A DNA stretch of 64,000 bases from Anadara kagoshimensis (lineage: Eukaryota > Mollusca > Bivalvia > Arcoida > Arcidae), in NCBI GenBank assembly GCA_021292105.1, contig CM037863.1, positions 9,426,085 to 9,490,084 of the forward strand, in the 5' to 3' direction. Numbering within the stretch: the stretch's first letter is position 1; every line of letters starts with the position of its first letter. Position numbers and translations under genes: made by a program. Below, piece after piece: positions 5,654 to 64,000 of this stretch. Below the pieces are notes generated by a model. It was not told the DNA's origin. It did no database searches and saw only the letters and a program-made list of their open reading frames with translations.

Positions 5654-5675
5654 TTTTATCCAATAATCTTCTTTG

Positions 5676-5695
5676 CTACAAAAATAGATTAAAAC
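5676..5695 (-). promoter_or_regulatory. 3' splice site before TRIM-like gene 1 ATG
   Basis: A T-rich tract followed by TAG on the minus strand implies an intron in the 5' UTR. The upstream non-coding exon was not located. Confidence 0.6.
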
Positions 5696-6380: not shown

Positions 6381-6487
6381 AGAAAAATAGAATTACAAAA
6401 ATATATTTAACCACATTTACCTAATGCAATACTAAGAACGATTAAAAAAGAAATATACATGTGCTTGTCAACTTGTTTAGCCGATAA

Positions 6488-6742: not shown

Positions 6743-7233
6743 TTAAACAAATCCACCAAATGCAATAATTTGAACCATTAAACAAAGAAAAAAAACATGT
6801 GCCTGTCAACTTCTTTAGTTGACCAATTTGGAAAATAAATTTATATAGGAGGTGAATCTATAAAGCACCTACCACTATGCAAACTTTGATAGGTTTAGTT
6901 TTAATTCAGGGGAATTGCATTGCAGATTACACAAAATATGTACCATTCATAGCAAATATTGCTGAAAAATGGCAAAACTAATAAATAAATAAATGAATGA
7001 ATAAATAAATAAATAAACTGTAAAAATTCACGAAAAAGAGACGAAAATTGCATGAAATAGGAGGTACACATCATTGTTTTGCCGGAAAACTTCAGCCCTA
7101 ATACATTTGGAATTACAGATTTACACAAAGTGTGTACTGTAGTAGACAGGAACAGACGAACGAATCGACAAGTCGAGCATCTACTAGCCTCGCTTTCACC
7201 GTGAATATTGAAAACTACGGCCTTAATACAGTT
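6743..7233. other. Intergenic; AAAT microsatellite, otherwise unassigned
   Basis: AT-rich DNA with a degenerate AAAT/AATG microsatellite at 6974-7017. A phrase gaacagacgaacgaatcgac near 7150 recurs near 7527, on the other side of the MITE-D insertion. No gene seen. Confidence 0.6.
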
Positions 7234-18232: not shown

Positions 18233-18455
18233 AATGGACAGTGATCCTTATTAAATTATCAATCTCAATTGTCTAATTTCACACGTGGCGGGAGCAGCTA
18301 GCTAAACAGGAGTCGTTTACCATTCCGAAGCACCCGACCTCACTTCCCTTGTGAATGTTCATGCGTCTAACCTAACTTGTCAGTTCCAAAGTTTTTACGT
18401 TGCTTCTGGATTGTGAATCGGACATGGATTAGTATGTTTGCTTTTGATTTTCATA
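18233..18455 (+). repeat. DR1 dispersed repeat (plus)
   Basis: Nearly complete: cacacgtggcgggagcagct, agctaaacaggagtcgttta, aacctaacttgtcagttcca, cggacatggattagtatgtt. Confidence 0.8.
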
Positions 18456-20795: not shown

Positions 20796-21711
20796 AATTT
20801 TAGATTTCTTCTTGCTGCGTATTGTCGCTAACAAGTTGTCGTAAAATGTTCCAGTTAGATATAAACGATTCCTTAAAATGGACTAAGTAACTATAGCATA
20901 TACATGTAATTAATAACTATAACGGTAATATCAAACTCCCCTGTAGTGCAAACTTATAGAGATAAAGGGGTTTATAAGATATAATAGTTATAAAGTTTTA
21001 TAACGTCACTGTGTCTACGTGAGTCTTTGACAATGAGAAGTCTTGTGGGTTTTTTAATACTTTTATCAAGTTTGTCATACAGGATACTTGGACTAAATAA
21101 CAAGTCAATTTTAAATAGGAATTTAGTTTTCGATCGTCACTATCTATACACGAGACTCGTTCTTTTAAAAGATTTTCAATTTTTTGTCAAACAGGATTAC
21201 TTAAAGTGGACTAAATAACAATGCAATTTAAATGAGGGTGAAGTTTTAAATTGCGACTATGTTTATATGAGACTCATTCTTTTAAACGGTGTACGTTCGT
21301 ATTTCTGATACTTTGATCAAGTTTGTCATACAAGGCAACTTTAAATAAGGATTAAGTTTTTATTGCCACTATCTGTACATGAGAGTGATTTGTTTAAATA
21401 AGTTTCAGACATTGATAATCTTTACGTTTCTTATATTTTCAAGACTTTAAGCAAAGCTTTAGGATTGGAGCCTAATAGGTGTCTCTAAATGCAGGACATT
21501 CATAAGATTTTGATATCGATATAAGAACAACTATGAATGACGATGAAGTACAAAAATTCGAGTTGAATATATGCAATGGAGACGGAAGTTTCTCGGCAAT
21601 TTGAAGAACCACCTTTAATAGCGCGACAGATGAGAAATTTGATATATTGGGAAAATCATACCATTTTGAGGTAACTATTTTTGAGTACTTTTTATGTATG
21701 TCAACATACAG
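20796..21711. other. Upstream region of TRIM-like gene 2, with a degenerate repeat
   Basis: Between about 21000 and 21400 a phrase (tcaagtttgtcatacagg, gacttaaagtggactaaataa, tttttattgccactatctgt) recurs loosely three to four times, suggesting an old ~150-bp tandem repeat. A 5' UTR exon must lie somewhere upstream if the acceptor at 21709-21711 is used; it was not identified. Confidence 0.4.
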
Positions 21712-21716
21712 AAATA

Positions 21717-23702
21717 ATGGCATTGCCTTGGGCTATAATAGATGATGAAAATTTAATGTGCCCACTCTGTTTTGAACAATATCAAGAGCCTGAGTATTTG
21801 CCGTGTGTGCATTCATTTTCTGAAAAATCTTTAAAAATTCATCTAAAAGCTGGGAGAGTTAGAAAAAGAGGGACCGGTATACATACTATATGCCCTCCGC
21901 TTTGTTGTACAGAATTCGAGAAGCCACAAGGACCTTCCAATTCTAACATTCTAAAAGCGATTCCAAATGTAAACACCGAACGACATATTCAAGACACCAA
22001 CCATGAACAGATTAAAGAAGTAATGTGCTTTCCGTGTCAATGCGATGGAAATAATGTAAAAGCAACATATTGGTGTTTTGATTGTGAATTTGCCATCTGT
22101 GATCTCTGTAAAAATTTCCATGCGAAATTTCCAACAATGATCAGTCATAGAGTTTGTTTACTAACCAAGAAAACCCCCAGCATAGAAGCTTCTACTGAAT
22201 TCTGTCCAGACCACAAACACGAAAAACTAGACATGTATTGTTGCACACATCATAAACCGTGCTGTGAAATTTGTTCAGTGACAGAGCACAGAAATTGCTT
22301 GAGTGTAGTAACTTTAGACATCGCGGTACAACAATTTGCTGATCCGACAAGTATTGGTTCATTAAAAGACTTGCTTGATGAATCAAATCAAAGAATGACA
22401 CTTCTTAAAGAAAATAGAAAACAAAACATTGTAGATCTGCAAGTTAGTAAAGTTGATATCGACAACCATATGGCAAATCTTCGTAGCGAAGTGGATAGAT
22501 ACCTCGATAGAATCCAGCGCGAATTTAACAGTAATCTGGACAACCTTCATAAGAGAACTGTTTCGTTATTGCAAAATCAAATTTCAGAGTTTGAATCAGA
22601 GAAAGAGAAATTATTAGACAGTAAGACATCCCTTGACATAAGCGTCAATAGACGGTCTAAACTTTTGAAAATGAAAGAAGTTGAACGGGCAAAAGATTTA
22701 GAAAGACAAACTCGTAGGTTCATTGTAGAGATGGAAAAACAAATGCGCCGTTTGTCATATAAAGAGGTATTGAAGACAATAAGCGCGATTCAGAGCGATA
22801 TCCCTTCACTTGGGTCCGTAAAATTAATGTCCGAATTCATCCAAAATATATCACTAACAGATTTGTCAAAGAAGTATCCTTTACAACATGAGAAGAGCTT
22901 CATGATTGAACCTACAAATGAAATTACAGGTATGACATTTTTACCCACCGGAGACATCATTTGTTGTATATATCAAGACAAACGCTTGTGTCGATACAGA
23001 TATGATGGGAAACTAGCTAGTAGATACGTCGTTGAACATAACCCATTTGATATCACCTTATTCAGTGACGTAGAGGTCATTGTTACATTTCCTCTGACCA
23101 AATGTCTTCAGATACTGAACATTGGAAATATGACTCCTACTCAACAGATCGAAGTTTCCCAACAATTCTACGGAGTATGCTGTAGACTAGAGAAGATTTA
23201 CCTTTCTCACGCGCATGGAATCGTCGTCATTAACTCAAGAGGATTTGAGGAACAGAAATACGCATTTGACATTGGACCAGAAAAATACATCAATGTTAAA
23301 ATGTCTGGAGAAATTCTTTTTACTTCTCCAAGCGGATTACATAGTATATCAACGAATGGCGAACAAAAAAAAGTTTTCGATAAAACCGTCCCTTTGTTTG
23401 GAGTAACGTCAGATTATGATGGCCAGATATATGTTGCCTCGGGAACTTCTGCAATAATGTTGTCTGACCGAGGATGTATTAAACAGAATTTCTATTTGAA
23501 ACACAGCTGTCGTGCAATTGCATTCGGGATCAATCGAACTAAAATCGCTGTGTCAAGCACAGACACCGAGTACTACACAGATACACCTGTTTCAAGAATT
23601 TCAAAACGAAGAAGAGCCATTGGCAAAACTGACGAAAGGATTCAGTTACAAAAACACCATTTAGCGATTTACGATCTTACAGACAAAGGTAGTCATTCTT
23701 AA
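21717..23702 (+). CDS. TRIM-like protein 2 with degenerate RING
   Basis: 661-aa TRIM-family protein in one coding exon. The ATG at 21717 was chosen because the frame upstream starts only at a TTG and an acceptor (acatacag) ends 5 nt before it. The RING keeps C15, C18, C30 and H32, but the next pair is S35 and S38 (both TCT) where TRIM-like gene 3 has C35 and C38. The last pair reads CPPLC, with three residues between Cys instead of two. One zinc site is thus lost and the other is disturbed. B-box 1 (104-144) and B-box 2 (163-194) are complete, and a coiled coil (about 215-365) and an NHL-like C-terminus follow. Members without a working RING can act as scaffolds or regulators; ligase activity is unlikely. 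A DR1 repeat begins at its stop codon. Confidence 0.9.
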   Translation: MALPWAIIDDENLMCPLCFEQYQEPEYLPCVHSFSEKSLKIHLKAGRVRKRGTGIHTICPPLCCTEFEKPQGPSNSNILKAIPNVNTERHIQDTNHEQIKEVMCFPCQCDGNNVKATYWCFDCEFAICDLCKNFHAKFPTMISHRVCLLTKKTPSIEASTEFCPDHKHEKLDMYCCTHHKPCCEICSVTEHRNCLSVVTLDIAVQQFADPTSIGSLKDLLDESNQRMTLLKENRKQNIVDLQVSKVDIDNHMANLRSEVDRYLDRIQREFNSNLDNLHKRTVSLLQNQISEFESEKEKLLDSKTSLDISVNRRSKLLKMKEVERAKDLERQTRRFIVEMEKQMRRLSYKEVLKTISAIQSDIPSLGSVKLMSEFIQNISLTDLSKKYPLQHEKSFMIEPTNEITGMTFLPTGDIICCIYQDKRLCRYRYDGKLASRYVVEHNPFDITLFSDVEVIVTFPLTKCLQILNIGNMTPTQQIEVSQQFYGVCCRLEKIYLSHAHGIVVINSRGFEEQKYAFDIGPEKYINVKMSGEILFTSPSGLHSISTNGEQKKVFDKTVPLFGVTSDYDGQIYVASGTSAIMLSDRGCIKQNFYLKHSCRAIAFGINRTKIAVSSTDTEYYTDTPVSRISKRRRAIGKTDERIQLQKHHLAIYDLTDKGSHS

Positions 23703-24944: not shown

Positions 24945-26969
24945 ATGGCAGAAGCACAGCGAACGTTTGATGAAGATATTCTACAATGCCCTCTGTGTTG
25001 TTGCATCTACGATAATCCTAGACAGTTGCCTTGCCTTCATTCATTTTGCTTGAAATGTCTCCTGAACCATGTTTCACCCTTGTCATACAGTAATAATGAC
25101 ACGGTCACGGAAAGAATCAATGAATGCAAAGAATCAAGGTCTCACATGTGTCCTGTGTGTCGTACAGTTTTTGCCATCAGTCAAGAATTGGATCCATTAG
25201 AATACGTTAGAAGATTACCGTCAAACAATGTGCTGAGCATGCTGATTCAACAAGACAAATTCGAGCAGTGTCACAACTTTTGTGATCTTTGCTTCAAATC
25301 TGATAAAAAGGCCAAAGCTGAATTTTATTGTGTCGATTGTAAAATGGCATTTTGCATCGTGTGTGAGAACTGTCATAAAAAATTTCCATCAATTTCAAAC
25401 CACACCACACTACCCCTAGATGCAACAGTAAACCGTTCATGTGTTCCGGGATCTAATTTATTTTGCGAGGATCATACGTACTTGAAACTAGATTTCTTTT
25501 GTTCCAGTCACCAGAAGCCATGTTGCAAGCTTTGTGTCAAATTATATCATACACAATGCAAGGATGTAAGGGCTATCCGCAAAGCATTAAATGATGTTGA
25601 TAAAACAGAGGAAATTTCCAATCTTTCACATTCTTTTGATGAATTAATTTCAATGTACGTTGAAATTAAAAAAGACAGACATGAAAATATTGTACGTTTA
25701 ACCAATGAAACTAGAATCACAAACGATAGAATAGAACTCTTAGGAAACAGTATCATCGAGCATTTCAAAACCTTGATGCAAACTATGAAGAATCAAAATG
25801 AGTGTTTACTTTCCAAAAGTGTGTCTAAACTTGATCAACAGATGTCAGAAATCGACCACTCTTTGAAATCGGCTATTAATATCAAGACTTTACTCCGTGC
25901 GTGTAGCAACCACTCCTCAAACATACAGATACTACAACAGCTGGATAAGATTTCTCACTCTTGTAAAGAACAACAAGGCTCATTAACAGAGTATAGAAAG
26001 CAGTTGTTTAGCATTGAGCATGAAGTGAATTTCACATGTCGAATAGAAGACGTACAAGCACAACAAAGAGAATTGGGGTCCTTGAAAGTGAAAAAAGCAA
26101 TAATTCCAAGTATATCTATGTATACTGAAATGAAGAGAACACTATCCATCGTCATCCCGGCAGAACAAAATCGGGAATCAAGCCAATATTCAACACAAAA
26201 ATTTTTTGGAGCAAGACATGCTAAAAATGCATTCATCACTGGAGCAGTATTTCATTCAAGTGGTAACATAATATTCGCCAATAACTCCGAAAATGCAATC
26301 CATATACACGACTCGGAGGGAAGTAAATTACTGAAACAGATGTTGAACTACAAACCCTTTGATCTTGCCGTTTTAGATGACGACATGCTTGCAATATCAT
26401 TTCCCGAGGAATGTCAAATTATGAAGTTCAGTCTAAAATATAGACAGCTTCGAGGTTGGAAGACAACACTGGAAAGCTGTTATGGAATACATTTGACACG
26501 AGATAAATTATTTGCCTCATGTATTACCCATATTGAAATTTTTTCTACAATTTCAAACACACAACATATGATTCAGAAAGTTAAAAGTACACAGGGTTAT
26601 CTGTATGTTCCGTCTGACTTGGATGAAATCTACTATACGGCGGAGAATCGCTTGGTTTGTGTATCATCAGACGGAAAAGAACTACATCATCATAACAGTG
26701 ACAATAGAAGCCTTGCAGGGGTTACAATGGGTGCCGATGGTTACATATATGCAGCAGATACTACGAATAAGACTGTTATAATGTTTTCAAAAACACTGGT
26801 ACAATTACAGGCATATCCAGTTGACTTTATACCTTCAGCCCTGGTTTTCTTAAAAGAAAATAAAAAACTTTGCATTTCTCGTATGCAAAAAGGGGAAGTG
26901 GGAGGCATTGTACAAGATCGCTACAAGCAAACTCTGCTTGAGTGTGCATCTTTATTTGAATTAATGTGA
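24945..26969 (+). CDS. TRIM-like protein 3 (RING, two B-boxes, coiled coil, NHL-like propeller)
   Basis: 674-aa probable E3 ubiquitin ligase of the TRIM family. The RING is complete: C15, C18, C30, H32, C35, C38, C69 and C72. B-box 1 spans 113-153 and B-box 2 174-205. A long helical region (about 215-390) contains leucine-rich heptad-like stretches. The C-terminal ~250 residues resemble gene 1 closely, with shared phrases such as YKPFDLAVLDDDMLAIS, GYLYVPSDLDEIYYTAENRL and GVTMGADGYIYAADTTNKT. Genes 1 and 3 are the closer pair although they lie 20 kb apart on opposite strands; gene 2 is more distant although it is adjacent. No clear poly(A) signal follows within 100 nt. Confidence 0.92.
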   Translation: MAEAQRTFDEDILQCPLCCCIYDNPRQLPCLHSFCLKCLLNHVSPLSYSNNDTVTERINECKESRSHMCPVCRTVFAISQELDPLEYVRRLPSNNVLSMLIQQDKFEQCHNFCDLCFKSDKKAKAEFYCVDCKMAFCIVCENCHKKFPSISNHTTLPLDATVNRSCVPGSNLFCEDHTYLKLDFFCSSHQKPCCKLCVKLYHTQCKDVRAIRKALNDVDKTEEISNLSHSFDELISMYVEIKKDRHENIVRLTNETRITNDRIELLGNSIIEHFKTLMQTMKNQNECLLSKSVSKLDQQMSEIDHSLKSAINIKTLLRACSNHSSNIQILQQLDKISHSCKEQQGSLTEYRKQLFSIEHEVNFTCRIEDVQAQQRELGSLKVKKAIIPSISMYTEMKRTLSIVIPAEQNRESSQYSTQKFFGARHAKNAFITGAVFHSSGNIIFANNSENAIHIHDSEGSKLLKQMLNYKPFDLAVLDDDMLAISFPEECQIMKFSLKYRQLRGWKTTLESCYGIHLTRDKLFASCITHIEIFSTISNTQHMIQKVKSTQGYLYVPSDLDEIYYTAENRLVCVSSDGKELHHHNSDNRSLAGVTMGADGYIYAADTTNKTVIMFSKTLVQLQAYPVDFIPSALVFLKENKKLCISRMQKGEVGGIVQDRYKQTLLECASLFELM

Positions 26970-44592: not shown

Positions 44593-44859
44593 GTCCTTGA
44601 TGTTACTTAGTATTGGCAGACAATAATGGTCCGAACTTTTTAAAACTATGTGTGCCAGTAATGAAAACTGCAAAGTGACTAAACGCTGGCAAAGTTACTA
44701 TGAACGAGAAGCAAAGAACACGACATATTATAAGAACAAGAACAACACACAACCAACAAAGGTTGAAGCCAATGGATCATTGCAAATAAATGAAATCCTT
44801 TGTGAATTACAAACACTTGGCAACAGTCGAGGCACCTAAAACACGATATAATACAAATA

Positions 44860-45121
44860 ATCAAAAAACAAACATACTAATCCATTTCCGAATCACAATC
44901 CAGAAGCAAAGTAAAAACTTTGGAACTGACAAGTTAGGTTAGACACGTGAACTTCCACCAGGGAAATGAGGCCGGGTGCTTCGGAAGGGTAAGCACCTCC
45001 TGTTTAGCTAGCTACACCCGCCACGTGTGTAATCAAAATTGTGTGAAAGGAACATGGAACTATGAGACGTCAAATATAATCAAGGCAATCCTGGACACAG
45101 AGACATCAAACTTATCAACAA
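44860..45121 (-). repeat. DR1 dispersed repeat (minus), full-length
   Basis: All DR1 blocks are present in reverse order, from aaaaaacaaacatactaatc to ctggacacagagacatcaaa. About 260 bp, one of the best-preserved copies. Confidence 0.9.
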
Positions 45122-45956
45122 TACTGTGATGACGGCCATAACACTTTTTGAGGGCCTTGATAAGCCTAGGCTTGCAATATCCCCGAGTCAACAATTTATT
45201 TGCAAGCAGCCTACTTCGTTGTACATAAATGGTATAAAAGAACCAAACAAGAAATTACAGACATAATGGGACCACTGATTATAATATTCTAGGCTATTTA
45301 TACCTTTTGAGTGAACTTATGGGCGTTATGTTATATAAGATATTAAATAATTTTGGAAGGACTCCCTATTACAATCCCTAAATATTGATTTTTAATTAAA
45401 AAAATACGAAAATTGAAGGAATCAACCGTTTTGGACAACACTCTGTGAAATATATTTCATATATTTTAAGAAGTTTACATAAAAATTAAATGGTTGGCTT
45501 TCAAAGGGAAGTCTTGACACAATTATTGTACTGAATGATGCCATCGTCATGTTATTGTCATTTACAGTTTATTTAAAAGTCGATTTGGTCACTGGGCATA
45601 ATTTTGAAATATATTGCAGTGCTAGTCCAAAGTCGAGAGTTTATAATCATTGGTTTCAATATGTGCTTGTCTTTTCTTGTCTTGTATGTTTGGGTTCAGA
45701 TTTCATTAACGTGTGCTGTTTGATGTTTTTGCTTGCTTTGGTTGATGCCAAGTATATACCGCGTTTTTTCTTTTTTTTTTTCTTTTTTAATTTTCACAAT
45801 TCTACTTCGATTACCGGCTTACATTCCTGTGATGGCTTATTTGAAAACTTGGCATTTGGGTCATGACATTTATAATTAGATCTTGATGAGTTTTCAGTTT
45901 ACCAAATTCTTTACTTCAAAATCTCTTTATGAATGGCATGGGACACAAGAAGAACA

Positions 45957-47640: not shown

Positions 47641-47947
47641 TCAAGTGTTTAAAACTTGTATGATTGTTTATCGCGAAGAATCGGAATTAAATTAACTTTG
47701 TAAGAACGCTGACTTCTGAATTCACTCTATTTTTATTACCTTTGCAAAATGAATTACAGACGTGACGAATTTTACAGACAGAACAGAGTGCAATCATGTC
47801 CATTTATTTGTTGTGGAGATGAAATATTTATTAAGAATGAGACCACAATTTACCATAATAATACATGTATATGTAACTGAAAAAGCTACCCAGGGATATT
47901 GCAACCCTCAAAAAAAATTATGGACGTCATCACAGTATTGTTATGAT

Positions 47948-48200
47948 TTATGTCTCTGTGTCCAGGGTTGCCCTGGATATATTGACGTCCCATATTTCCA
48001 TGTTCCTTTCACACAATTTTGATTACATAGGTGGCGGGTGTAGCTGTCTAAAAGGAGATGATTGCCCCTCCGGAGCACCCAGCCTCACTTCCTTGATGGA
48101 AGTTCACGTGTTTAACTTAATTTGTCAGTCTTAAGGTTTTTACTTTAATTTGCTTCTGTTTTGTTGTTCGGACATGAACTGGTATGTTTATTTTTATATT
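47948..48200 (+). repeat. DR1 dispersed repeat (plus), full-length
   Basis: tatgtctctgtgtccagggt, ttgattacataggtggcggg, ctccggagcacccagcctca, ggaagttcacgtgtttaact, cggacatgaactggtatgtt. Confidence 0.88.
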
Positions 48201-48302
48201 ACAATAAAAGCAGCCAAGAAAAAGACACAGTGCAAGTAAATGGCACATTTCAAGTTAATACAGAAATGTTTAACATACCGTGACCACGGATACCTGAAGT
48301 AC

Positions 48303-48365
48303 GTTACTTATTCAACATTGCAGCGTTCAACATTGAATAAGTAAACAGTTACTTATTCAACATTC
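48303..48365. repeat. Inverted and direct repeat of acttattcaacatt
   Basis: acttattcaacattg and ttcaacattgaataagt form a hairpin, followed by a second direct acttattcaacattc. It lies ~60 bp before the satellite array. Confidence 0.75.
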
Positions 48366-48424
48366 GCAAATATTTTCGTTTCATTTATAAAACATCAAAT
48401 AAAACAAATTTTATCACATTTCAC

Positions 48425-51400
48425 GATTAAGTGTCACTACCAAGTATAGTTATCCCCAATGCCTCGGAACACATTGGCTTAAAGCTTCAATGTAAGCCCA
48501 TAGCATTATACAGTGTATTTCCTATAGACGGAAAGTAAAAAGCCTGAGCAAAGTGAAGCTTTCACTGTGCTCGAAATTTCGCAATACCATTTTGTAATAC
48601 TATGCTTAGGCAATGTCACTACCAAGGATGGTTACCTCCCGTGCCTCGGAACACATTGGCTTAAAGCTTCAATGTAAGCCCATACCATTATACAGTGTAT
48701 TTCATATAGACGGAATGTAAAAAGCCTGAGCAAAGTGAAGCTTTCACTGTGCTCAAAATTTCGCAATACCATTTTGTAATACTATGCTTAGGCAATGTCA
48801 CTACCAAGTATAGTTACCACCCGTGCCTCGGAACACATTGGCTTAAAGCTTCAATGTAAGCCCATACCATTATACAGTGCATTTCCTATAGACGGTAAGT
48901 AAAAAGCCTGAGCAAAGTGAAGCTTTCACTGTGCTCAAAATTTCGCAATACCATTTTGTAATACTATGCTTAGGCAATGTCACTACTAAGTATGGTTACC
49001 ACCCGTGCCTCGGAACACATTGGCTTAAAGCTTCAATGTAAGCCCATACCATTATACAGTGTATTTCCTATAGACGGAAAGTAAAAAGCCTGAGCAAAGT
49101 GAAGCTTTCACTGTGCTCGAAATTTCGCAATACCATTTTGCAATACTATGCTTAGGCAATGTCACTACCAAGTATGGTTACCCCCCGTGCCTCGGAACAC
49201 ATTGGCTTAAAGCTTCAATGTAAGCCCATACCATTATACAGTGTATTTCATATAGACGGAAAGTAAAAAGCCTGAGCAAAGTGAAGCTTTCACTGTGCTC
49301 AAAATTTCGCAATACCATTTTGTAATACTATGCTTAGGCAATGTCACTACCAAGTATGGTTACCCCTAGTGCCTCGAAACACATTGGCTTAAAGCTTAAA
49401 TGTAAGCCCATACTATTATACAGTGTATTTCCTATAGACGGAAAATAAAAAGTGAAGCTTTCACTGTGCTCGGAATTTCGAAATTCCATTTTGTACTACT
49501 ATGCTTAGGCAATGTCACTACCAAGTATGGTTACCCCCAGTGCCTCGGAACACATTGGCTTAAAGCTTCAATATAAGCCCATACCATTATACAGTTTATT
49601 TCATATAGACGGAAAATAAAAAGCCTGAGCAAAGTAAAGCTTTCACTGTGCTCCGAATTTCGAAATACCATTTTGTACTACTATGCTTAGGCAATGTCAC
49701 TACCAAATATGGTTACCCCCAGTGCCTCGGAACACATTGGCTTAAAGCTTCAATGTAAGCTCATACCATTATACAGTGTATTTCATATAGACGCAAAGTA
49801 AAAAGCCTGAGCAAAGTGAAGCTTTCTCTGTGCTCCAAATTTCGAAATACCATTTTGTACTACTATACTTAGGCAATGTCACTACTAAGTATGGTTACCC
49901 CAGTGCCTCGGAACACATTGGCTTAAAGCTTCAATATAAGCTCATACCATTATACAGTGTATTTCATATAGACGGAAGGTAAAAAGCCTGAGCAAAGTGA
50001 AGCTTTCAATGTGCTCGGAATTTCGAAATACCATTTTGTACTACTATGCTTAGTCAATGTCACTACCAAGTATGGTTACCCCCAGTGCCTCGGAACACAT
50101 TGGCTTAAAGCTTCAATGTAAGCCCATACCATTATACAGTGTATTTCATATAGACGGAAAGTAAAAAGCCTGAGCAAAGTGAAGCTTTCACTGTGCTCAA
50201 AATTTCGCAATACCATTTTGTAATACTATGCTTAGGCAATGTCACTACCAAGTATGGTTACCCCTAGTGCCTCTAAACACATTGGCTTAAAGCTTCAATG
50301 TAAGCCCATACTATTATACAGTGTATTTCCTATAGACGGAAAATAAAAAGTGAAGCTTTCACTGTGCTCGGAATTTCGAAATTCCATTTTGTACTACTAT
50401 GCTTAGGCAATGTCACTACCAAGTATGGTTACCCCAGTGCCTCGGAACACATTGGCTTAAAGCTTCAATATAAGCCCATACCATTATACAGTTTATTTCA
50501 TATAGACGGAAAATAAAAAGCCTGAGCAAAGTAAAGCTTTCACTGTGCTCCGAATTTCGAAATACCATTTTGTACTACTATGCTTAGGCAATGTCACTAC
50601 CAAATATGGTTACCCCCAGTGCCTCGGAACACATTGGCTTAAAGCTTCAATGTAAGCTCATACCATTATACAGTGTATTTCATATAGACGCAAAGTAAAA
50701 AGCCTGAGCAAAGTGAAGCTTTCACTGTGCTCCAATTTCGAAATACCATTTTGTACTACTATACTTAGGCAATGTCACTACTAAGTATGGTTACCCCAGT
50801 GCCTCGGAACACATTGGCTTAAAGCTTCAATATAAGCCATACCATTATACAGTGTATTTCATATAGACGGAAGGTAAAAAGCCTGAGCAAAGTGAAGCTT
50901 TCAATGTGCTCGGAATTTCGAAATACCATTTTGTACTACTATGCTTAGTCAATGTCACTACCAAGTATGGTTACCCCCAGTGCCTCGGAACACATTGGCT
51001 TAAAGCTTCAATGTAAGCCCATACCATTATACAGTGTATTTCATATAGACGGAAAGTAAAAAGCCTGAGCAAAGAGAAGCTTTTACTGTGCTCGAAATTA
51101 CGAAATACCATTTTGTACTACTATGCTTAGGCAATGTCACTACCAAGTATGGTTACCCCCAGTGCCTCGGAACACATTGGCTTAAAGCTTCAATGTAAGC
51201 CCATACCATTATACAGTGTATTTCATGAAGACGGAAAGTAAAGTGCCTAATCAAAGTGAAGCTTTCACTGTGCTCGGAATTTCAGAACACCATTTTTTAC
51301 TACTATGCTTAGGCAATGTCACTACCAAGTATGGTTACCACCCGTGCCTCGGAACACATTGGCTTAAAGCTTCAATGTAAGCCCATACCATTATACAGTG

Positions 51401-53340
51401 TATTTCCTATAGACGGTAAGTAAAAAGCCTGAGCAAAGTGAAGCTTTCACTGTGCTCAAATTTCGCAATACCATTTTGTAATACTATGCTTAGGCAATGT
51501 CACTACCAAGTATGGTTACCACCCGTGCCTCGGAACACATTGGCTTAAAGCTTCAATGTAAGCCCATACCATTATACAGTGTATTTCCTATAGACGGAAG
51601 GAAAAAGCCTGAGCAAAGTGAAGCTTTCACTGTGCTCAATTTCGCAATACCATTTTGTAATACTATGCTTAGGCAATGTCACTACCAAGTATGGTTACCC
51701 CCTGCCTCGGAACACATTGGCTTAAAGCTTCAATGTAAGCCCATACCATTATACAGTGTATTTCATAAGACGGAAAGTAAAGTGCCTAAGCAAAGTAAGC
51801 TTTCACTGTGCTCGGAATTTCAGAACAGCATTTTTACTACTATGCTTAGGCAATGTCACTACCAAGTATGGTTACCCCCAGTGCCTCGAACACATTGGCT
51901 TAAAGCTTCAATAAGCCTACCATTATACAGTGTATTTCATATAGACGGAAAGTAAAAAGCCTGAGCAAAGTGAAGCTTTCACTGTGCTCGGAATTTCGAA
52001 ATACTATTTTGTACTACTATGCTTAGGCAATGTCACTACCAAGTATGGTTACCCCCAGTGCCTCGGAACACATTGGCTTAAAGCTTCAATGTAAGCCCAT
52101 ACCATTATACAGTGTATTTCCTATAGACGGAAAATAAAGAGCCTGAGCAAAGTGAAGCTTTCACTGTGCTTGGAATTTCGAAATACCATTTTGTACTACT
52201 ATGCTTAGGCAATGTCACTACCAAGTATGGTTACCCCCAGTGCCTCGGAACACATTGGCTTAAAGCTTCAATGTAAGCCCATACCATTATACAGTGTATT
52301 TCATGAAGACGGAAAGTAAAGTGCCTAAGCAAAGTGAAGCTTTCATTGTGCTCGAAATTTCAGAAAATCATTTTTTACTACTATGCTTAGGCAATGTCAC
52401 TACCAAGTATGGTTACCCCCAGTGCATCGAAACACATTGGCTTAAAGCTTCAATATAAGCCTATACCATTATATGGTGTATTTCATATAGACGGAAAGTA
52501 AAAAGACTGAGCAAAGTGAAGCTTTCACTGTGCTCGGAATTTCGAAATACCATTTTGTACTACTATGCATAGGCAATGTCACTACTAAGTATGGTTTCCC
52601 CAGTGCCTCGGAACACATTGGCTTAAAGCTTCAATGTAAGCCCATACCATTATATAGTGTATTTCATATAGACGGAAAATAAAGAGCCTGAGCAAAGTGA
52701 AGCTTTCACTGTGCTCGGAATTTCGAAATATCATTTTGTACTACTATGCTTAGGCAATGTCACTACCAAGTATGGTTACCCCTAGTGCCTCGGAACACAT
52801 TGGCTTAAAGCTTAAATGTAAGCCCATACTATTATACAGTGTATTTCCTATAGACGGAAAATAAAAAGTGAAGCTTTCACTGTGCTCGGAATTTCGAAAT
52901 TCCATTTTGTACTACTATGCTTAGGCAATGTCACTACCAAGTATGGTTACCCCCAGTGCCTCGGAACACATAGGCTTAAAGCTTCAATATAAGCCCATAC
53001 CATTATACAGTTTATTTCATATAGACGGAAAATAAAAAGCCTGAGCAAAGTAAAACTTTCACTGTGCTCCGAATTTCGAAATACCATTTTGTACTACTAT
53101 GCTTAGGCAATGTCACTACCAAGTATGGTTACCCCCAGTGCCTCGGAACACATTGGCTTAAAGCTTCAATATAAGCCCATGCCATTATACAGTATATTTC
53201 ATATAGACGGAAAGTAAACCGCCTGAACAATGTGAAGCTTCACTACCAAGTATTGTAATCAATGTCGCGGAACACATTGGGTAAAAAATTCAATAGACGT
53301 ACCGTATATTTCATATAGTCGTTAAGTAAACTGTTCGAGC
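48425..53340 (+). repeat. 182-bp satellite, diverged array (~27 monomers)
   Basis: The phrase gcctcggaacacattggctt recurs every ~182 bp (48461, 48643, 48825 and on). Monomers differ by substitutions and by short indels, including a ~14-bp deletion (cggaaaataaaaagtgaagc) shared by those near 49441, 50339 and 52860. Blocks of five monomers (~898 bp) repeat in the same variant order, for example about 49330-50225 and 50230-51110. After 53240 two strongly decayed monomers grade into unique DNA. Open frames inside are spurious. Confidence 0.95.
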
Positions 53341-53959
53341 ATAGTTAGGCTTATATTCTGGTAAACGGTTGATAACATTGTGTTGATATACTATTCTGTT
53401 ACTATGTCAGTACTAAGTTTAGTCTGGTAGAGGATTTTGAAAAAACCGCTTATTTTTCGATATAGGGAGGGTAACGTGTTCAAAGGTGGCAAGTTATGTC
53501 ATAACCTTCTTTGAACTTTATTTTGGTAGAATCGGCTTGTTGCCAAGCATGATTTCACTCAGGGGCCATTGTGGGGGCAACTAAAGGTCAATGGGTGCAA
53601 TGTTCAAGTGAAAATGTCCATATTGACCTATACACAAATTCAAGGTGGCTTACAGAAGTTTTTCTTTATACATTTTGTCTTCTAAATATGTAAGTGGTAT
53701 CTTCAAATTAATAGAAAGTCATATCCAACTAATTCAGTCACTTATTTTCAAAGTTTTCCATGAAAAATAAGATTAGACGCTTGCACAAATTTGACCTTTA
53801 CAAATATGATTAATTGTGGCAAATAAATACTACTATAAACACATTTGTGCATTTTAAATTGTTTAACAAAACTTTGGACTTCTGTTAAAATAATTTTACT
53901 GAATCATATTGCCCGTATTTATATAAGTATCCACTTTTGAAAAAAAAGAAATCAAAGTA
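53341..53959. other. Spacer between satellite arrays, unassigned
   Basis: AT-rich; a phrase with aagttatgtcataaccttct resembles a common interspersed repeat. Nothing else recognised. Confidence 0.4.
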
Positions 53960-55140
53960 CTGGTGGTACTGAAAGATTTGATTAGCTATAATGACTGTAT
54001 CTGTATAATACTATCAAGTGTGTTCTCTTTTTCTGGTGGAAATATTAGTGAACTGTTGAAACACGAACTATTTCCAGTGTCGCCTATACCTGATATATCA
54101 GGACCCTTGTTATCTGCAACCGACGAATCGGACCTTCAAAATATCCCTGAGGAAGAAGTTTGCATGGAGACATTACTACCAAAATAATTAATGGTCAAAC
54201 TTTAGTTGTAGCACTGGGAAAACGGAAAGACATCAATACATTCGGCGAGTTGGGAAACGCACAAACTGTTTTTATCCACGCGAAAGATAAATGTATTAAA
54301 TTGATGTCATTATGATAGATATGACCACTAATCCATAACAGGTGAAACCATCTAGAGATAAAAGAGGATCAGGTCTCTATTCTGTTAGAAAAAATATTGA
54401 TGATTAAAATGTCCCTCTGCCATCAAATTGGTAAGATTTCATCAGTCACCTAGAAAACAAATATGATCTCGTAGTAATCAAAGACACTTCTTAGCTTAGC
54501 TGAGGGTATCAGGGGGTCCAACAGACAGTATGTTTAATTCATACAGAGGAAAAAGTGAAACCGTTTTTAAAGCTTTACACAAGGAAGCCGATACTAGAAT
54601 TGTTCCCCATGGTGTTGATGCTTACATGCAAGGCTATAAAAGAACAGTTTGTCTGTCATGATACTGATGACCTTATTCTTCTGTTGCTTTTAAATGAGGA
54701 AGTATGATTCTAGACCGGTTCGTCCCTGTTCATAGCATAAAATTATCACCTCTGCAGAGGAATAAGCTCCCAGTATTCCATGCAATTACAGACTGTAAGA
54801 CTGTCAATTAACTTTCTAGACATTCTAAATACAGCATTCCGTGTTTCCAGGAAAAACACAGGTCTTCTTCCCACTCTTGCAAGAGGGAACATTTCTGAAC
54901 TTGTGAGTGCAGATGCCTTCATTGAATGTACCTAGCGAGGATTTCTCATCTACGATGTAAACTGTTCCTCTCAGGGGAAAAGTGCAATTGGAAATTTTCT
55001 TCCAACATCATATGCAACCGACCCACATATTCAACGTGCACACTATTAAACTGCTGTTTGGCTGCATTTAGTTATACCTGGTATTTGTTCCGGATCTCCC
55101 GTCACCTATAGGACACGGATGTGCTAGTGTCACTAACTTG
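53960..55140 (+). pseudogene. Decayed mobile-element-like gene (family seen in corals and molluscs)
   Basis: Reading across frames and stops, ordered protein phrases appear: a 74-codon open start (with FSGGNISELLKHELFPVSP), then NGQTLVVALGK...INTFGEL (about 54190-54270), VPLPSNW*DFISHLENKYDL (about 54408-54472), VCHDTDDLILLLLLNEE (about 54650-54705) and LPVFHAITDCKTVN (about 54770-54810). The order and wording match, from memory, uncharacterised repetitive proteins of cnidarians and molluscs that behave like transposon products. Many stops and frameshifts make it a relic. Family assignment is uncertain. Confidence 0.5.
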
Positions 55141-55684
55141 CGTACTGTATGCCTTTCCCTTCCAGTGGAGGTTAGTCCATCGACAAAATCCCCCAAACTG
55201 GCTCTGTTCTGCGCAATTTTACTCCCTCTGTTTTAATTCCAGAAACTTGTCTCAAGGTGTCTTTTATTTCTGTGTGTTCCATTTTAAAGTTTTGTGATGT
55301 TATTGGCAGGTGTCTCGATGGTGGGACCTATCTATCCCCAATAACGCTTTTGTGTTTGTGTTTCAAAACGACCTTGTTTTGTGATCCACCATAAACTTTT
55401 CGTTATTAATTTTGTCTTGTCATCTGGCAACAGGACCACGAACAATACTAGTTTTTATACTTAAATCTGAGTTTTTCACAAATTAAAATTTTTATTTTTA
55501 TTTATTTTTATTTTTATTTTTTTTTTTGCTTAAATCTTACTTTGAACTTTAACATTCACGATTATTCACGGACAGTTAAGTTAGTGCGAGTCTGAATGTG
55601 ACTTAAAAACAGTTTTAATGAGAAAATTATAAATATTAATTGCATGGGGTTTTACGGGTTTTTACGTATTTCAGTACCAGCTAT
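55141..55684. other. Spacer, unassigned
   Basis: Possibly the 3' end of the same relic; a TTTTTA run lies at 55486-55524. No further protein phrase was recognised. Confidence 0.4.
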
Positions 55685-55955
55685 AGGTGAAGTGGCAGAA
55701 ATAATTACCTTTGTAGTGAACGTAGAGAAATGTGCAGGAAAAGCCCCTTAACATGTTACACCCGTCTTGACACGGGGCATCGGTTTTTAAGATCTCTCTC
55801 AAAGGATCTTGTGACTTTCGTTTCTAAATATCGAGTGTTTGGCAAAAGAACAGTCACTACCTTATTTCAAGTCTTGGTCAGACCCAACTAGGGTTCGAAC
55901 CCAGGACTCACCACATACGGGGAGTGAGCGCTATACCAATTGAGCTACAGTAGGG
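55685..55955 (-). mobile_element. SINE-1, full-length with intact tRNA-like promoter (minus)
   Basis: On the minus strand: tgtagctcaattggtatagc (A box) and gggttcgaaccctag (perfect B-box core GGTTCGAACCC), then gtctgaccaagacttgaaat, gttcttttgccaaacactcg and the end acctatagctgg. The best-preserved copy in the window, ~270 bp. Confidence 0.85.
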
Positions 55956-56859
55956 GTTTTTTAATGAGAAAATAACCTTTACCAAAATCATGGCATTCAT
56001 TGCTGAATTGTAATTTAAAATATAAATCACGTTGCACTACAAGATGTACATGTAGGCCATACAGTTTAAAGTGGGTGACTGTATGCACTTGCAATGGGAC
56101 CGTTGAACCGTTGATTGGTTGAACCCTTTGAATGATAATGCCACAGATAGTGATATTGATGAATGAAAAGAAATCGTTAGATGTGACTGATATATTCCAG
56201 AGATTCTCGTGACTATGCTTTGCCGATTACAGTACTTGCAGTACTTTGATTTTAAACTTTTAATAAATTTCAAATTATCAGCTGGGTTTAAACAATATAT
56301 TTGTTTTAATAACAGTCATGTATTTACAAAAGAATTATATTTTAGCTTTTGATTCATGCTTTGATGCTGAATGTATACTTTATTTTATTCTATCTTGAAG
56401 CTTGTATCAGAATTTTGAAAAATAAGATTGAAATATTTAAATTTTAGCCTAAACAGTCTCAATTAGCTTCCTAGTCAATGTTAAAATACATGAAATGAGA
56501 ACAGATTTTATTGATTTATTTAAATCTCAGAAAGTATATATTTGGACAGCTATAAACTAATAAAGATTAATTTTTGCGGAAAAAAACACTTTCTGACCTT
56601 TGACCTTTTATCTACTAAACCAAGGGTCGATCAGCTTGGCAACAGGTTGATTCTTGACCCCTAACCTATGATAATATATGACAGCTATGTTGCCAGCTTT
56701 GAACACTCATGTCCCCCTATTGTGAAGTTTCAATTTTTTTTCCACCAGACTATAAGTATTTTCTGATGTTCACGATTATTCTCGGACAGTTAAGTGTGTG
56801 ACTGAATGTGATTTAAAAACAGTTTTAATGAGAAAATATTGCATGATAGTTTATTTTCC

Positions 56860-57075
56860 TGTACTTGTTTGGGACACTTTGACCTAAAGCATCAATCTAA
56901 GCAAATGTCATCACACAATAAATTATACATATGTTGAAAGTAAAGGTTCTGGCATGGTGAAGCTTTCATTTTATTGACAATTATAAATCCAAGTTAATAT
57001 ATAAAGTATAAATTTTTGAAATGACATATTGTAACACCTCATATGGGCATTGTCACTATAGAATAGAAACTTATC
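56860..57075 (+). repeat. Highly diverged 182-bp satellite monomer in the spacer
   Basis: In satellite order: ttgggacactttgacctaaa, gcatcaatctaagcaaatgt, aaagtaaaggttctggcatg, gtgaagctttcatttt, gggcattgtcactata. The sense is that of the diverged array. Similarity is low but the block order is kept. Confidence 0.55.
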
Positions 57076-57339
57076 TAGAGCACATTTTTGAAAATCAACG
57101 AAATAGAACTGAGATCCTCAGAACATATGTTCCGAAAGTAACATATCAAAATTTGATATAACCGAAAGGCAAGGGCGGGCTCTGGGCCCCTAAAAATGGG
57201 CAATGTCACTACAGAGAATCAAAGACAAATAATAGGGACAATTGTTCCGAAAGTAATTAAATAGATTGATATCAGAATACGGGTTTTTATAGAACAAAAG
57301 AAAAATGACACAGCAAATCGAAAGTTAAGAATAAATATA

Positions 57340-57440
57340 TTTGTATTTTTGTCCATAGTTTCGTATTTTTGTCACAAGTTCGTATTTTTGTCCACAAGTT
57401 CGTACATCTGTCCACAGTTTCGGATTTTCGTCCACGGTCT
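57340..57440. repeat. Short ~20-bp tandem repeat, five units
   Basis: Degenerate units of gtttcgtatttttgtccaca over 57340-57440. They lie ~210 bp before the homogeneous satellite array. Confidence 0.75.
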
Positions 57441-57651
57441 AACCACAAAATTACTAAACAAAAATGTCTACGACAACTTACATGGGGCTATCACTTTCAT
57501 CATTTGTATTTTAAAGAAATACATCTTAAATACAATAAAATAATATCTTAAATATAGCAAAATTGCAGATTCAACTATCACTTTTCAATACACGAGAAAT
57601 ACGAAACTAAATGAACATTTTCGCGGTCTATTTCGAAACTCTAAAATGATT

Positions 57652-60600
57652 ATATTGAAGCTTTAAGCCAATGTGTTCCGAGGCACTGGGGGTAACCATA
57701 CTTGGTAGTGACATTGCCTAAGCATAGTAGTACAAAATGATATTTCGAAATTCCGAGCACAGTGAAAGCTTCACTTTGCTCAGGCTCTTTATTTTCCGTC
57801 TATAGGAAATACACTGTATAATGGTATGGGCTTACATTGAAGCTTTAAGCCAATGTGTTCCGAGGCACTGGGGGTAACCATACTTGGTAGTGACATTGCC
57901 TAAGCATAGTAGTACAAAATGATATTTCGAAATTCCGAGCACAGTGAAAGCTTCACTTTGCTCAGGCTCTTTATTTTCCGTCTATAGGAAATACACTGTA
58001 TAATGGTATGGGCTTACATTGAAGCTTTAAGCCAATGTGTTCCGAGGCACTGGGGGTAACCATACTTGGTAGTGACATTGCCTAAGCATAGTAGTACAAA
58101 ATGATATTTCGAAATTCCGAGCACAGTGAAAGCTTCACTTTGCTCAGGCTCTTTATTTTCCGTCTATAGGAAATACACTGTATAATGGTATGGGCTTACA
58201 TTGAAGCTTTAAGCCAATGTGTTCCGAGGCACTGGGGGTAACCATACTTGGTAGTGACATTGCCTAAGCATAGTAGTACAAAATGATATTTCGAAATTCC
58301 GAGCACAGTGAAAGCTTCACTTTGCTCAGGCTCTTTATTTTCCGTCTATAGGAAATACACTGTATAATGGTATGGGCTTACATTGAAGCTTTAAGCCAAT
58401 GTGTTCCGAGGCACTGGGGGTAACCATACTTGGTAGTGACATTGCCTAAGCATAGTAGTACAAAATGATATTTCGAAATTCCGAGCACAGTGAAAGCTTC
58501 ACTTTGCTCAGGCTCTTTATTTTCCGTCTATAGGAAATACACTGTATAATGGTATGGGCTTACATTGAAGCTTTAAGCCAATGTGTTCCGAGGCACTGGG
58601 GGTAACCATACTTGGTAGTGACATTGCCTAAGCATAGTAGTACAAAATGATATTTCGAAATTCCGAGCACAGTGAAAGCTTCACTTTGCTCAGGCTCTTT
58701 ATTTTCCGTCTATAGGAAATACACTGTATAATGGTATGGGCTTACATTGAAGCTTTAAGCCAATGTGTTCCGAGGCACTGGGGGTAACCATACTTGGTAG
58801 TGACATTGCCTAAGCATAGTAGTACAAAATGATATTTCGAAATTCCGAGCACAGTGAAAGCTTCACTTTGCTCAGGCTCTTTATTTTCCGTCTATAGGAA
58901 ATACACTGTATAATGGTATGGGCTTACATTGAAGCTTTAAGCCAATGTGTTCCGAGGCACTGGGGGTAACCATACTTGGTAGTGACATTGCCTAAGCATA
59001 GTAGTACAAAATGATATTTCGAAATTCCGAGCACAGTGAAAGCTTCACTTTGCTCAGGCTCTTTATTTTCCGTCTATAGGAAATACACTGTATAATGGTA
59101 TGGGCTTACATTGAAGCTTTAAGCCAATGTGTTCCGAGGCACTGGGGGTAACCATACTTGGTAGTGACATTGCCTAAGCATAGTAGTACAAAATGATATT
59201 TCGAAATTCCGAGCACAGTGAAAGCTTCACTTTGCTCAGGCTCTTTATTTTCCGTCTATAGGAAATACACTGTATAATGGTATGGGCTTACATTGAAGCT
59301 TTAAGCCAATGTGTTCCGAGGCACTGGGGGTAACCATACTTGGTAGTGACATTGCCTAAGCATAGTAGTACAAAATGATATTTCGAAATTCCGAGCACAG
59401 TGAAAGCTTCACTTTGCTCAGGCTCTTTATTTTCCGTCTATAGGAAATACACTGTATAATGGTATGGGCTTACATTGAAGCTTTAAGCCAATGTGTTCCG
59501 AGGCACTGGGGGTAACCATACTTGGTAGTGACATTGCCTAAGCATAGTAGTACAAAATGATATTTCGAAATTCCGAGCACAGTGAAAGCTTCACTTTGCT
59601 CAGGCTCTTTATTTTCCGTCTATAGGAAATACACTGTATAATGGTATGGGCTTACATTGAAGCTTTAAGCCAATGTGTTCCGAGGCACTGGGGGTAACCA
59701 TACTTGGTAGTGACATTGCCTAAGCATAGTAGTACAAAATGATATTTCGAAATTCCGAGCACAGTGAAAGCTTCACTTTGCTCAGGCTCTTTATTTTCCG
59801 TCTATAGGAAATACACTGTATAATGGTATGGGCTTACATTGAAGCTTTAAGCCAATGTGTTCCGAGGCACTGGGGGTAACCATACTTGGTAGTGACATTG
59901 CCTAAGCATAGTAGTACAAAATGATATTTCGAAATTCCGAGCACAGTGAAAGCTTCACTTTGCTCAGGCTCTTTATTTTCCGTCTATAGGAAATACACTG
60001 TATAATGGTATGGGCTTACATTGAAGCTTTAAGCCAATGTGTTCCGAGGCACTGGGGGTAACCATACTTGGTAGTGACATTGCCTAAGCATAGTAGTACA
60101 AAATGATATTTCGAAATTCCGAGCACAGTGAAAGCTTCACTTTGCTCAGGCTCTTTATTTTCCGTCTATAGGAAATACACTGTATAATGGTATGGGCTTA
60201 CATTGAAGCTTTAAGCCAATGTGTTCCGAGGCACTGGGGGTAACCATACTTGGTAGTGACATTGCCTAAGCATAGTAGTACAAAATGATATTTCGAAATT
60301 CCGAGCACAGTGAAAGCTTCACTTTGCTCAGGCTCTTTATTTTCCGTCTATAGGAAATACACTGTATAATGGTATGGGCTTACATTGAAGCTTTAAGCCA
60401 ATGTGTTCCGAGGCACTGGGGGTAACCATACTTGGTAGTGACATTGCCTAAGCATAGTAGTACAAAATGATATTTCGAAATTCCGAGCACAGTGAAAGCT
60501 TCACTTTGCTCAGGCTCTTTATTTTCCGTCTATAGGAAATACACTGTATAATGGTATGGGCTTACATTGAAGCTTTAAGCCAATGTGTTCCGAGGCACTG

Positions 60601-63600
60601 GGGGTAACCATACTTGGTAGTGACATTGCCTAAGCATAGTAGTACAAAATGATATTTCGAAATTCCGAGCACAGTGAAAGCTTCACTTTGCTCAGGCTCT
60701 TTATTTTCCGTCTATAGGAAATACACTGTATAATGGTATGGGCTTACATTGAAGCTTTAAGCCAATGTGTTCCGAGGCACTGGGGGTAACCATACTTGGT
60801 AGTGACATTGCCTAAGCATAGTAGTACAAAATGATATTTCGAAATTCCGAGCACAGTGAAAGCTTCACTTTGCTCAGGCTCTTTATTTTCCGTCTATAGG
60901 AAATACACTGTATAATGGTATGGGCTTACATTGAAGCTTTAAGCCAATGTGTTCCGAGGCACTGGGGGTAACCATACTTGGTAGTGACATTGCCTAAGCA
61001 TAGTAGTACAAAATGATATTTCGAAATTCCGAGCACAGTGAAAGCTTCACTTTGCTCAGGCTCTTTATTTTCCGTCTATAGGAAATACACTGTATAATGG
61101 TATGGGCTTACATTGAAGCTTTAAGCCAATGTGTTCCGAGGCACTGGGGGTAACCATACTTGGTAGTGACATTGCCTAAGCATAGTAGTACAAAATGATA
61201 TTTCGAAATTCCGAGCACAGTGAAAGCTTCACTTTGCTCAGGCTCTTTATTTTCCGTCTATAGGAAATACACTGTATAATGGTATGGGCTTACATTGAAG
61301 CTTTAAGCCAATGTGTTCCGAGGCACTGGGGGTAACCATACTTGGTAGTGACATTGCCTAAGCATAGTAGTACAAAATGATATTTCGAAATTCCGAGCAC
61401 AGTGAAAGCTTCACTTTGCTCAGGCTCTTTATTTTCCGTCTATAGGAAATACACTGTATAATGGTATGGGCTTACATTGAAGCTTTAAGCCAATGTGTTC
61501 CGAGGCACTGGGGGTAACCATACTTGGTAGTGACATTGCCTAAGCATAGTAGTACAAAATGATATTTCGAAATTCCGAGCACAGTGAAAGCTTCACTTTG
61601 CTCAGGCTCTTTATTTTCCGTCTATAGGAAATACACTGTATAATGGTATGGGCTTACATTGAAGCTTTAAGCCAATGTGTTCCGAGGCACTGGGGGTAAC
61701 CATACTTGGTAGTGACATTGCCTAAGCATAGTAGTACAAAATGATATTTCGAAATTCCGAGCACAGTGAAAGCTTCACTTTGCTCAGGCTCTTTATTTTC
61801 CGTCTATAGGAAATACACTGTATAATGGTATGGGCTTACATTGAAGCTTTAAGCCAATGTGTTCCGAGGCACTGGGGGTAACCATACTTGGTAGTGACAT
61901 TGCCTAAGCATAGTAGTACAAAATGATATTTCGAAATTCCGAGCACAGTGAAAGCTTCACTTTGCTCAGGCTCTTTATTTTCCGTCTATAGGAAATACAC
62001 TGTATAATGGTATGGGCTTACATTGAAGCTTTAAGCCAATGTGTTCCGAGGCACTGGGGGTAACCATACTTGGTAGTGACATTGCCTAAGCATAGTAGTA
62101 CAAAATGATATTTCGAAATTCCGAGCACAGTGAAAGCTTCACTTTGCTCAGGCTCTTTATTTTCCGTCTATAGGAAATACACTGTATAATGGTATGGGCT
62201 TACATTGAAGCTTTAAGCCAATGTGTTCCGAGGCACTGGGGGTAACCATACTTGGTAGTGACATTGCCTAAGCATAGTAGTACAAAATGATATTTCGAAA
62301 TTCCGAGCACAGTGAAAGCTTCACTTTGCTCAGGCTCTTTATTTTCCGTCTATAGGAAATACACTGTATAATGGTATGGGCTTACATTGAAGCTTTAAGC
62401 CAATGTGTTCCGAGGCACTGGGGGTAACCATACTTGGTAGTGACATTGCCTAAGCATAGTAGTACAAAATGATATTTCGAAATTCCGAGCACAGTGAAAG
62501 CTTCACTTTGCTCAGGCTCTTTATTTTCCGTCTATAGGAAATACACTGTATAATGGTATGGGCTTACATTGAAGCTTTAAGCCAATGTGTTCCGAGGCAC
62601 TGGGGGTAACCATACTTGGTAGTGACATTGCCTAAGCATAGTAGTACAAAATGATATTTCGAAATTCCGAGCACAGTGAAAGCTTCACTTTGCTCAGGCT
62701 CTTTATTTTCCGTCTATAGGAAATACACTGTATAATGGTATGGGCTTACATTGAAGCTTTAAGCCAATGTGTTCCGAGGCACTGGGGGTAACCATACTTG
62801 GTAGTGACATTGCCTAAGCATAGTAGTACAAAATGATATTTCGAAATTCCGAGCACAGTGAAAGCTTCACTTTGCTCAGGCTCTTTATTTTCCGTCTATA
62901 GGAAATACACTGTATAATGGTATGGGCTTACATTGAAGCTTTAAGCCAATGTGTTCCGAGGCACTGGGGGTAACCATACTTGGTAGTGACATTGCCTAAG
63001 CATAGTAGTACAAAATGATATTTCGAAATTCCGAGCACAGTGAAAGCTTCACTTTGCTCAGGCTCTTTATTTTCCGTCTATAGGAAATACACTGTATAAT
63101 GGTATGGGCTTACATTGAAGCTTTAAGCCAATGTGTTCCGAGGCACTGGGGGTAACCATACTTGGTAGTGACATTGCCTAAGCATAGTAGTACAAAATGA
63201 TATTTCGAAATTCCGAGCACAGTGAAAGCTTCACTTTGCTCAGGCTCTTTATTTTCCGTCTATAGGAAATACACTGTATAATGGTATGGGCTTACATTGA
63301 AGCTTTAAGCCAATGTGTTCCGAGGCACTGGGGGTAACCATACTTGGTAGTGACATTGCCTAAGCATAGTAGTACAAAATGATATTTCGAAATTCCGAGC
63401 ACAGTGAAAGCTTCACTTTGCTCAGGCTCTTTATTTTCCGTCTATAGGAAATACACTGTATAATGGTATGGGCTTACATTGAAGCTTTAAGCCAATGTGT
63501 TCCGAGGCACTGGGGGTAACCATACTTGGTAGTGACATTGCCTAAGCATAGTAGTACAAAATGATATTTCGAAATTCCGAGCACAGTGAAAGCTTCACTT

Positions 63601-64000
63601 TGCTCAGGCTCTTTATTTTCCGTCTATAGGAAATACACTGTATAATGGTATGGGCTTACATTGAAGCTTTAAGCCAATGTGTTCCGAGGCACTGGGGGTA
63701 ACCATACTTGGTAGTGACATTGCCTAAGCATAGTAGTACAAAATGATATTTCGAAATTCCGAGCACAGTGAAAGCTTCACTTTGCTCAGGCTCTTTATTT
63801 TCCGTCTATAGGAAATACACTGTATAATGGTATGGGCTTACATTGAAGCTTTAAGCCAATGTGTTCCGAGGCACTGGGGGTAACCATACTTGGTAGTGAC
63901 ATTGCCTAAGCATAGTAGTACAAAATGATATTTCGAAATTCCGAGCACAGTGAAAGCTTCACTTTGCTCAGGCTCTTTATTTTCCGTCTATAGGAAATAC
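57652..64000 (-). repeat. 182-bp satellite, homogeneous inverted array (~35 monomers, open at window end)
   Basis: The phrase agctttaagccaatgtgttc recurs exactly every 182 bp (57659, 57841, 58023 and on). I saw no substitution or indel between monomers across about 34.9 copies. The sense is opposite to the 48.4-53.3 kb array. The monomer is the inverse of that array's consensus, with variants aaagagcctg and gaaatatcatt. No open frame survives. Confidence 0.97.

Follow-up and report, generated by a model that had tools for sequence, protein, structure and literature searches.

Two inverted 182-bp satellite arrays in the bivalve Anadara kagoshimensis read as the arms of a Foldback-type transposon

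Described elements with repeat-filled ends

The closest known systems to the locus presented here are Tetris and Rehavkus-1_TC. In the available part of its description (PMC4079207), Tetris is a Foldback transposon of Drosophila virilis made of a terminal flanking domain, an outer domain in which units of ~220 bp are tandemly repeated, and a non-coding middle, with target-site duplications (TSDs) of 8-10 bp and a variable number of repeats. The same part links long homogeneous arrays of up to 66 copies to the element and reports that no transposase-coding copy was found. Rehavkus-1_TC, with TCsat23, in Tribolium castaneum carries satellite arrays with a 164-bp unit in its inverted termini, and the accessible excerpt of PMC10218199 gives mostly five and eight monomers for these arrays. 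For Rehavkus in general, the portion of PMC6446971 at hand lists a TSD of 9 bp (in a table), a definition that includes a minisatellite before the 3' terminal inverted repeat (TIR), a PHD-finger transposase, and occurrence in arthropods and annelids. Two further Drosophila Foldback elements, Galileo and FB, are named in the available text of PMC4079207, where a reference-list title places Galileo in the P superfamily.

We analyzed a window, i.e., the whole 64,000-nucleotide stretch G000:C7:9426085-9490084, together with the 1.115-Gb, 36-contig genome (about 19 of the contigs being large) in which it lies. As far as the accessible descriptions go, the family found in the window is like Tetris in its domain order, non-coding middle, TSD size and variable repeat number; the host is different, and the likeness is one of description. 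It also departs from Tetris in its 182-bp monomer, in one arm of ~42 kb (600 bp of it read), and in having one copy that lacks the middle and one that carries it apparently inverted. With Rehavkus, again as partly described, it shares the 9-bp TSD and a minisatellite adjoining the TIR, although here both arms carry repeats. Tandem repeats within long TIRs are characteristic of Galileo and FB, and this Foldback architecture is common to them and to the window family by description alone. Taken together, a 9-bp TSD and repeat-filled termini would fit both Rehavkus, placed within or beside the Mutator group, and Tetris, judging from the excerpts of their descriptions. No bivalve Foldback element was described in the portions of the foldback and bivalve literature covered, and a text search combining "182 bp", "satellite DNA" and "clam" returned no paper.

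The two arrays, their outer ends and the middle

Tandem Repeats Finder detected a period-182 repeat on both sides of a 4,405-bp spacer (53245-57649), with 26.7 copies and 92% matches in the left array, and 34.9 copies and 99% matches in the in-window part of the right array, which has the opposite orientation. All 34 whole monomers of the right array within the window were identical, and the left-array whole monomers showed 91-99% identity to this unit. These calls bore out the first-pass annotation in its picture of two inverted 182-bp arrays, the left one diverged and the right one homogeneous. Its stronger statements needed trimming. The homogeneity of the right array, described as perfect, was so for the 34/34 whole monomers, but a single lag-182 mismatch was present at base 57653, in the partial first monomer, and the array continues beyond the window to extended coordinate 66427, so that 43 of the 47 whole monomers segmented between 57650 and 66427 were identical, with all the variants situated past 64,900. 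As for the higher-order structure ascribed to the left array, monomers 5-9 (49160-50057) are repeated as monomers 10-14 (50058-50952), each pair of monomers showing 1-2 differences; it is a single local duplication, and no regular higher-order repeat runs through the array.

The sequence flanking the arrays was informative, and 200 kb to the right of the window were read. After the right array come ~148 bp in which the sequence preceding the left array recurs in reverse complement, and the nine bases CGTGACCAC before the left end recur directly outside the right end, with a 9/9 match. Inverted terminal domains with CGTGACCAC at both sides therefore mean that 48288-66575, an 18.3-kb whole element between perfect copies of the duplication, has inverted ends and a 9-bp TSD (Table 1). 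Because the right flank shows this inverted end and duplication, a Foldback reading replaces that of independent arrays, and we consider it highly probable (about 0.92) that both arrays are the arms, i.e., the long TIRs, of a single copy of a non-autonomous Foldback-type transposon. The earlier proposal of neighboring satellites in which concerted evolution had failed is displaced by this reading, with the arrays being the TIRs of a single transposon with a 9-bp TSD. The left terminal domain contains an internal 12-bp hairpin stem (fold z of -2.55). The right terminal domain of the window copy is more diverged than the left, and was absent from the best 40 of 730 matches scored with the left domain.

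Table 1. Parts of the 18.3-kb element, in window coordinates and their extension beyond the window.
Feature	Position	Strand	Remarks
Left target-site duplication, CGTGACCAC	48279..48287	.	9/9 match with the right copy
Left terminal domain of the TIR, starting GGATACCTGAAGTACG	48288..48435	+	Aligns with the reverse-complemented right end
Left arm, 26.7 diverged 182-bp monomers, one five-monomer duplication	48432..53244	+	
Decayed monomer closing the left arm on its inner side	53245..53423	+	62% identity to the unit
Middle domain, apparently non-coding, repeated genome-wide	53430..57649	+	42 matches for 53430-55450
Right arm, in-window part, 34 identical whole monomers	57650..64000	-	Runs to extended coordinate 66427
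Right terminal domain	From the right-arm end (extended 66427) to 66575		Outside the window
Right target-site duplication	Extended 66576-66584 = C7:9492660-9492668 (L001:2576-2584)		Outside the window

The decayed monomer, which makes up the first ~180 bp of the spacer, showed 97% identity in the C16 copy. The genome-wide matches to the adjoining part of the middle were at 90-100% (best 40 of 671 candidates scored), and a 53-aa piece of the middle matched at all 150 scored places, out of 675 candidates. The longest frame had 107 aa. No decayed gene could be traced in the middle, with no frame longer than this in the 150 scored copies of the 53-aa piece. A Pfam search with ten pieces of the middle, representing part of the frames, gave no significant match, with neither a transposase nor a PHD finger such as the one in the partly described Rehavkus transposase. 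The middle, of ~4.2 kb, looks like a non-coding body.

Copies, monomers and arms across the genome

The left terminal domain is repeated elsewhere: among the best 40 of 730 candidates scored, 35 begin no more than 3 bp to either side of its first position; five, among them the window and the C17 duplicate of it, extend farther outward. The terminal 30-mer, with up to two mismatches allowed, occurred 440 times genome-wide (control, 0), and 149 distinct element ends were located out of these matches. When neighbors closer than 60 kb were inspected among the first 100 listed ends (exact matches, C1-C7), 24 pairs faced inward, one outward and two lay on the same strand, against about 1.7 pairs expected in all; the pair lengths went from 578 bp to 30.8 kb. 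The two types of end differ, with GGATACC at the left and GCATATC at the right. Eight copies had both flanks read, and their TSDs matched at 9/9 positions in four, the window included, and at 7/9 in one; the duplication was missing in the remaining three, C17:44.63 (1/9) and two mini-copies (3/9 and 2/9). Control pairings of mismatched flanks (56) averaged 2.66 matching positions and did not exceed 6. Long TIRs composed mostly of tandem repeats were observed in the window copy, in the C19:3.55 copy and at one end each of three more. Exact TIR and monomer strings had 0 matches each in viral contigs.

The monomer 30-mer was found 4,131 times in the genome (control, 0), equivalent to about 0.75 Mb if every match represents a whole monomer. 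The first 100 exact matches, all on C1 and assigned by eye, were distributed as 69 between paired ends, 29 extending from one listed end only, and 2 alone. A classical satellite DNA independent of the mobile element was rejected on the latter count. The inner junction between the middle and the right arm was present at 37 places (control, 0), 11 of them exact, including the window, and the variant base 57653 was present in all 11. For 18 of these junctions a right end was also located, and the 18 right arms thus measured had from ~1.3 to ~232 monomers, the upper figure being the distance to the nearest suitably placed known end, with nested inserts possible. Their values include about 1.3, 2.3, 3.3, 5.3, 7.3, 9.2, 12.3, 39.1, 48.4, 59.2, 75.2, 75.9 and 232, and the short arms stepped by whole units (1.3, 2.3, 3.3, 5.3, 7.3, 12.3). 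Right arms were longer in copies with the exact junction than in the others (6 vs. 12, p = 0.006). In the arm of ~232 monomers, which spans ~42 kb on C9, a 600-bp sample, the only part of that arm read, was the window's right unit at 600/600 positions.

The window's right unit was also compared with 172 monomers from 27 other ends, and 19 of them had no substitution from it, at five of the 27 ends. These belong to four copies, on C19, C17 (two) and C16, and at two of those loci (L028 and L046) the unit had neither substitutions nor indels. Because it is free of substitutions at five other ends, and the nearest left-array monomer is two substitutions away, the right-arm unit is a family-wide monomer type and did not arise by local copying from the left array. 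The recent amplification proposed for the right arm is retained as growth by whole units, which is likely because the 18 measured arms differ by near-whole monomers.

Substitutions between monomers (the outer 4-6 after the first) averaged 6.6 at 20 left ends and 1.5 at six right ends (p = 0.007), in a comparison from which seven ends were dropped for having too few monomers, where the right ends are a selected set and the left ends count both the left arm of the window copy and the C17 duplicate of this arm. A more homogeneous right arm was rejected as a rule for the family, since the copies with both arms measured split into three with the right arm more homogeneous (the window, C17:23.77 and C19:3.55) and two with the left (C12:31.77 and C19:37.85). 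A difference between the two arms is no peculiarity of the window copy, and its direction varies among the five.

Some copies showed a rearranged interior. At C19:3.55 Mb, the middle is lacking, and about 32 monomers directly abut about 8 inverted ones. At C16:25.15 Mb, the left end of the middle is joined to a right-type terminus, and this copy apparently carries an inverted middle, its other (low) end being typed solely from where its match begins; in two other copies (L041 and L043), the order of the middle was as in the window. The orientation in the C16 copy suggests recombination between inverted arms. The inverted arms, regarded in the first-pass annotation as a possible mark of a fragile or recombining site, probably do recombine, because the middle of this one copy appears inverted.

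Rival readings, possible mechanism and surrounding sequence

Three other explanations bear on these data. It is unlikely that assembly and polishing of a collapsed or mis-joined repeat created or exaggerated how perfectly homogeneous and how long the right array is, a concern raised beforehand that is partly sustained. Inverted homogeneous arms of such size can mislead assembly, and the 102 monomers with at most one substitution had 71 one-base deletions against 4 insertions, an excess that looks like residual consensus error. Moreover, the window's left flank is also present at C17:23.21 Mb, where its 1,426 aligned bases differ by indels alone and show 0 substitutions; there, the terminal domain is unchanged, 1,470 bases from the start of the left arm differ by 12 substitutions and 16 gaps, and the first 2 kb of the middle are present as well. 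The window's right flank was absent from C17:23.21 Mb among the scored matches, the inner right junction is unlisted there, and the reading frame 21 kb upstream had no duplicate with this copy, which is either a false duplication, a join through a repeat, or a recent real exchange. Local assembly error is likely. Nevertheless, the right unit fills the sample of the C9 arm and recurs in other copies, the short arms are whole-unit multiples, and the variant base 57653 is common to 10 other exact junctions, all of which speak against an artefact as the source of the homogeneity.

An ordinary fragile site with a pair of independent satellite arrays, or with an array and its flank in inverted segmental duplication, would produce the same in-window picture from inverted arms alone, and the more diverged right terminal domain is compatible with them. 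This explanation is contradicted by the duplications at several loci, with 9/9 TSDs at four unrelated sites, as well as by the 440 ends and the 24 inward pairs in the first 100, and is very improbable. Helitrons and Helentrons, for their part, have neither TSDs nor matching terminal inverted repeats. They do carry tandem repeats within a mobile element, a pattern reported for oysters in the available parts of PMC7492417 and PMC11136912; we give them next to no weight here, given the TIRs, the 9-bp duplications and the position of the arrays in both arms, not in the center.

Within the preferred reading of a Foldback-type transposon, the superfamily is undecided because no transposase was tied to the family. 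PF10551 (MULE) had 76 matches in the genome, the nearest at 18.7 kb from any of the 149 located ends, and PF20700 (Mutator) had 115, the nearest at 20.6 kb from an end and outside the pair to which that end belongs; no match to either was tied to the family, as judged against the 149 located of the 440 ends. The nearest PF10551 match, C18:19120645 (one stop), is downstream of an inward end with an unmapped partner and could be inside a long copy. The segment C18:19101989-19120917, with this MULE-domain match 18.7 kb inside the unpaired end, is a possible long-copy interior. The 9-bp TSD is within the Mutator-like (MULE) range of 8-11 bp given in the available portion of PMC6446971, and a Mutator/Rehavkus-like assignment from this duplication would be unproven.

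The element is organized, from the outside in, as a ~148-bp terminal domain and a 182-bp monomer array at each end, with the arms facing each other across the ~4.2-kb middle. Insertion, which left the 9-bp TSD seen in the sequence, would depend on a transposase supplied in trans and recognizing the terminal domain. The arms, whose lengths vary among copies, may change by whole monomers during or after transposition, with unequal exchange, slippage or break-induced copying as the putative engine of their growth. The homogeneous right arm would then be the family-wide monomer type expanded in the subfamily with the window copy's inner junction, and recombination of the inverted arms may flip the middle, as in the one copy mentioned. 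We propose only tentatively that transposition or hairpin repair itself amplifies the arm, so that young insertions are born with, or soon gain, tens to hundreds of identical monomers; if true, satellite DNA would here be newly generated by a transposon in real time, and the arms, tens of kb long, would exceed those in the Tetris reports. The structure is real and informative, ordinary in kind, and distinguished by its copy number, arm length and host phylum. It is a clear example, with many copies in a mollusc, of a transposon whose arms consist of satellite DNA, and these copies, differing in arm length by whole units, make it a testbed for satellite birth and homogenization.

Neither Rfam nor tRNA scanning of the window returned a match. 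Outside the element, the substitution-free left-flank duplicate on C17 corresponds to L021 (C17:23212003-23215169). The right flank contains a ~185-bp repeat at about 4285-4472 of L001, and a search with this flank gave 5,368 first-look candidates, with 39 of the best 40 matching solely that stretch. A dispersed short repeat with many copies is present at 6483-6744, 18276-18449, 44855-45154, 47905-48201 and other positions, and one of its copies stops about 90 bp short of the left end of the transposon, on the outside. Positions 1596-2824 and 291-789 hold a 440-bp repeat composed of ~49-bp units and a tandem repeat of 145 bp. The window also contains three long single-exon frames with RING and/or B-box matches (TRIM-like), at 3530-5779 (-), 21681-23702 (+) and 24945-26969 (+), and a cadherin-domain frame at 14159-14578 (+) that probably spans the membrane near its end.
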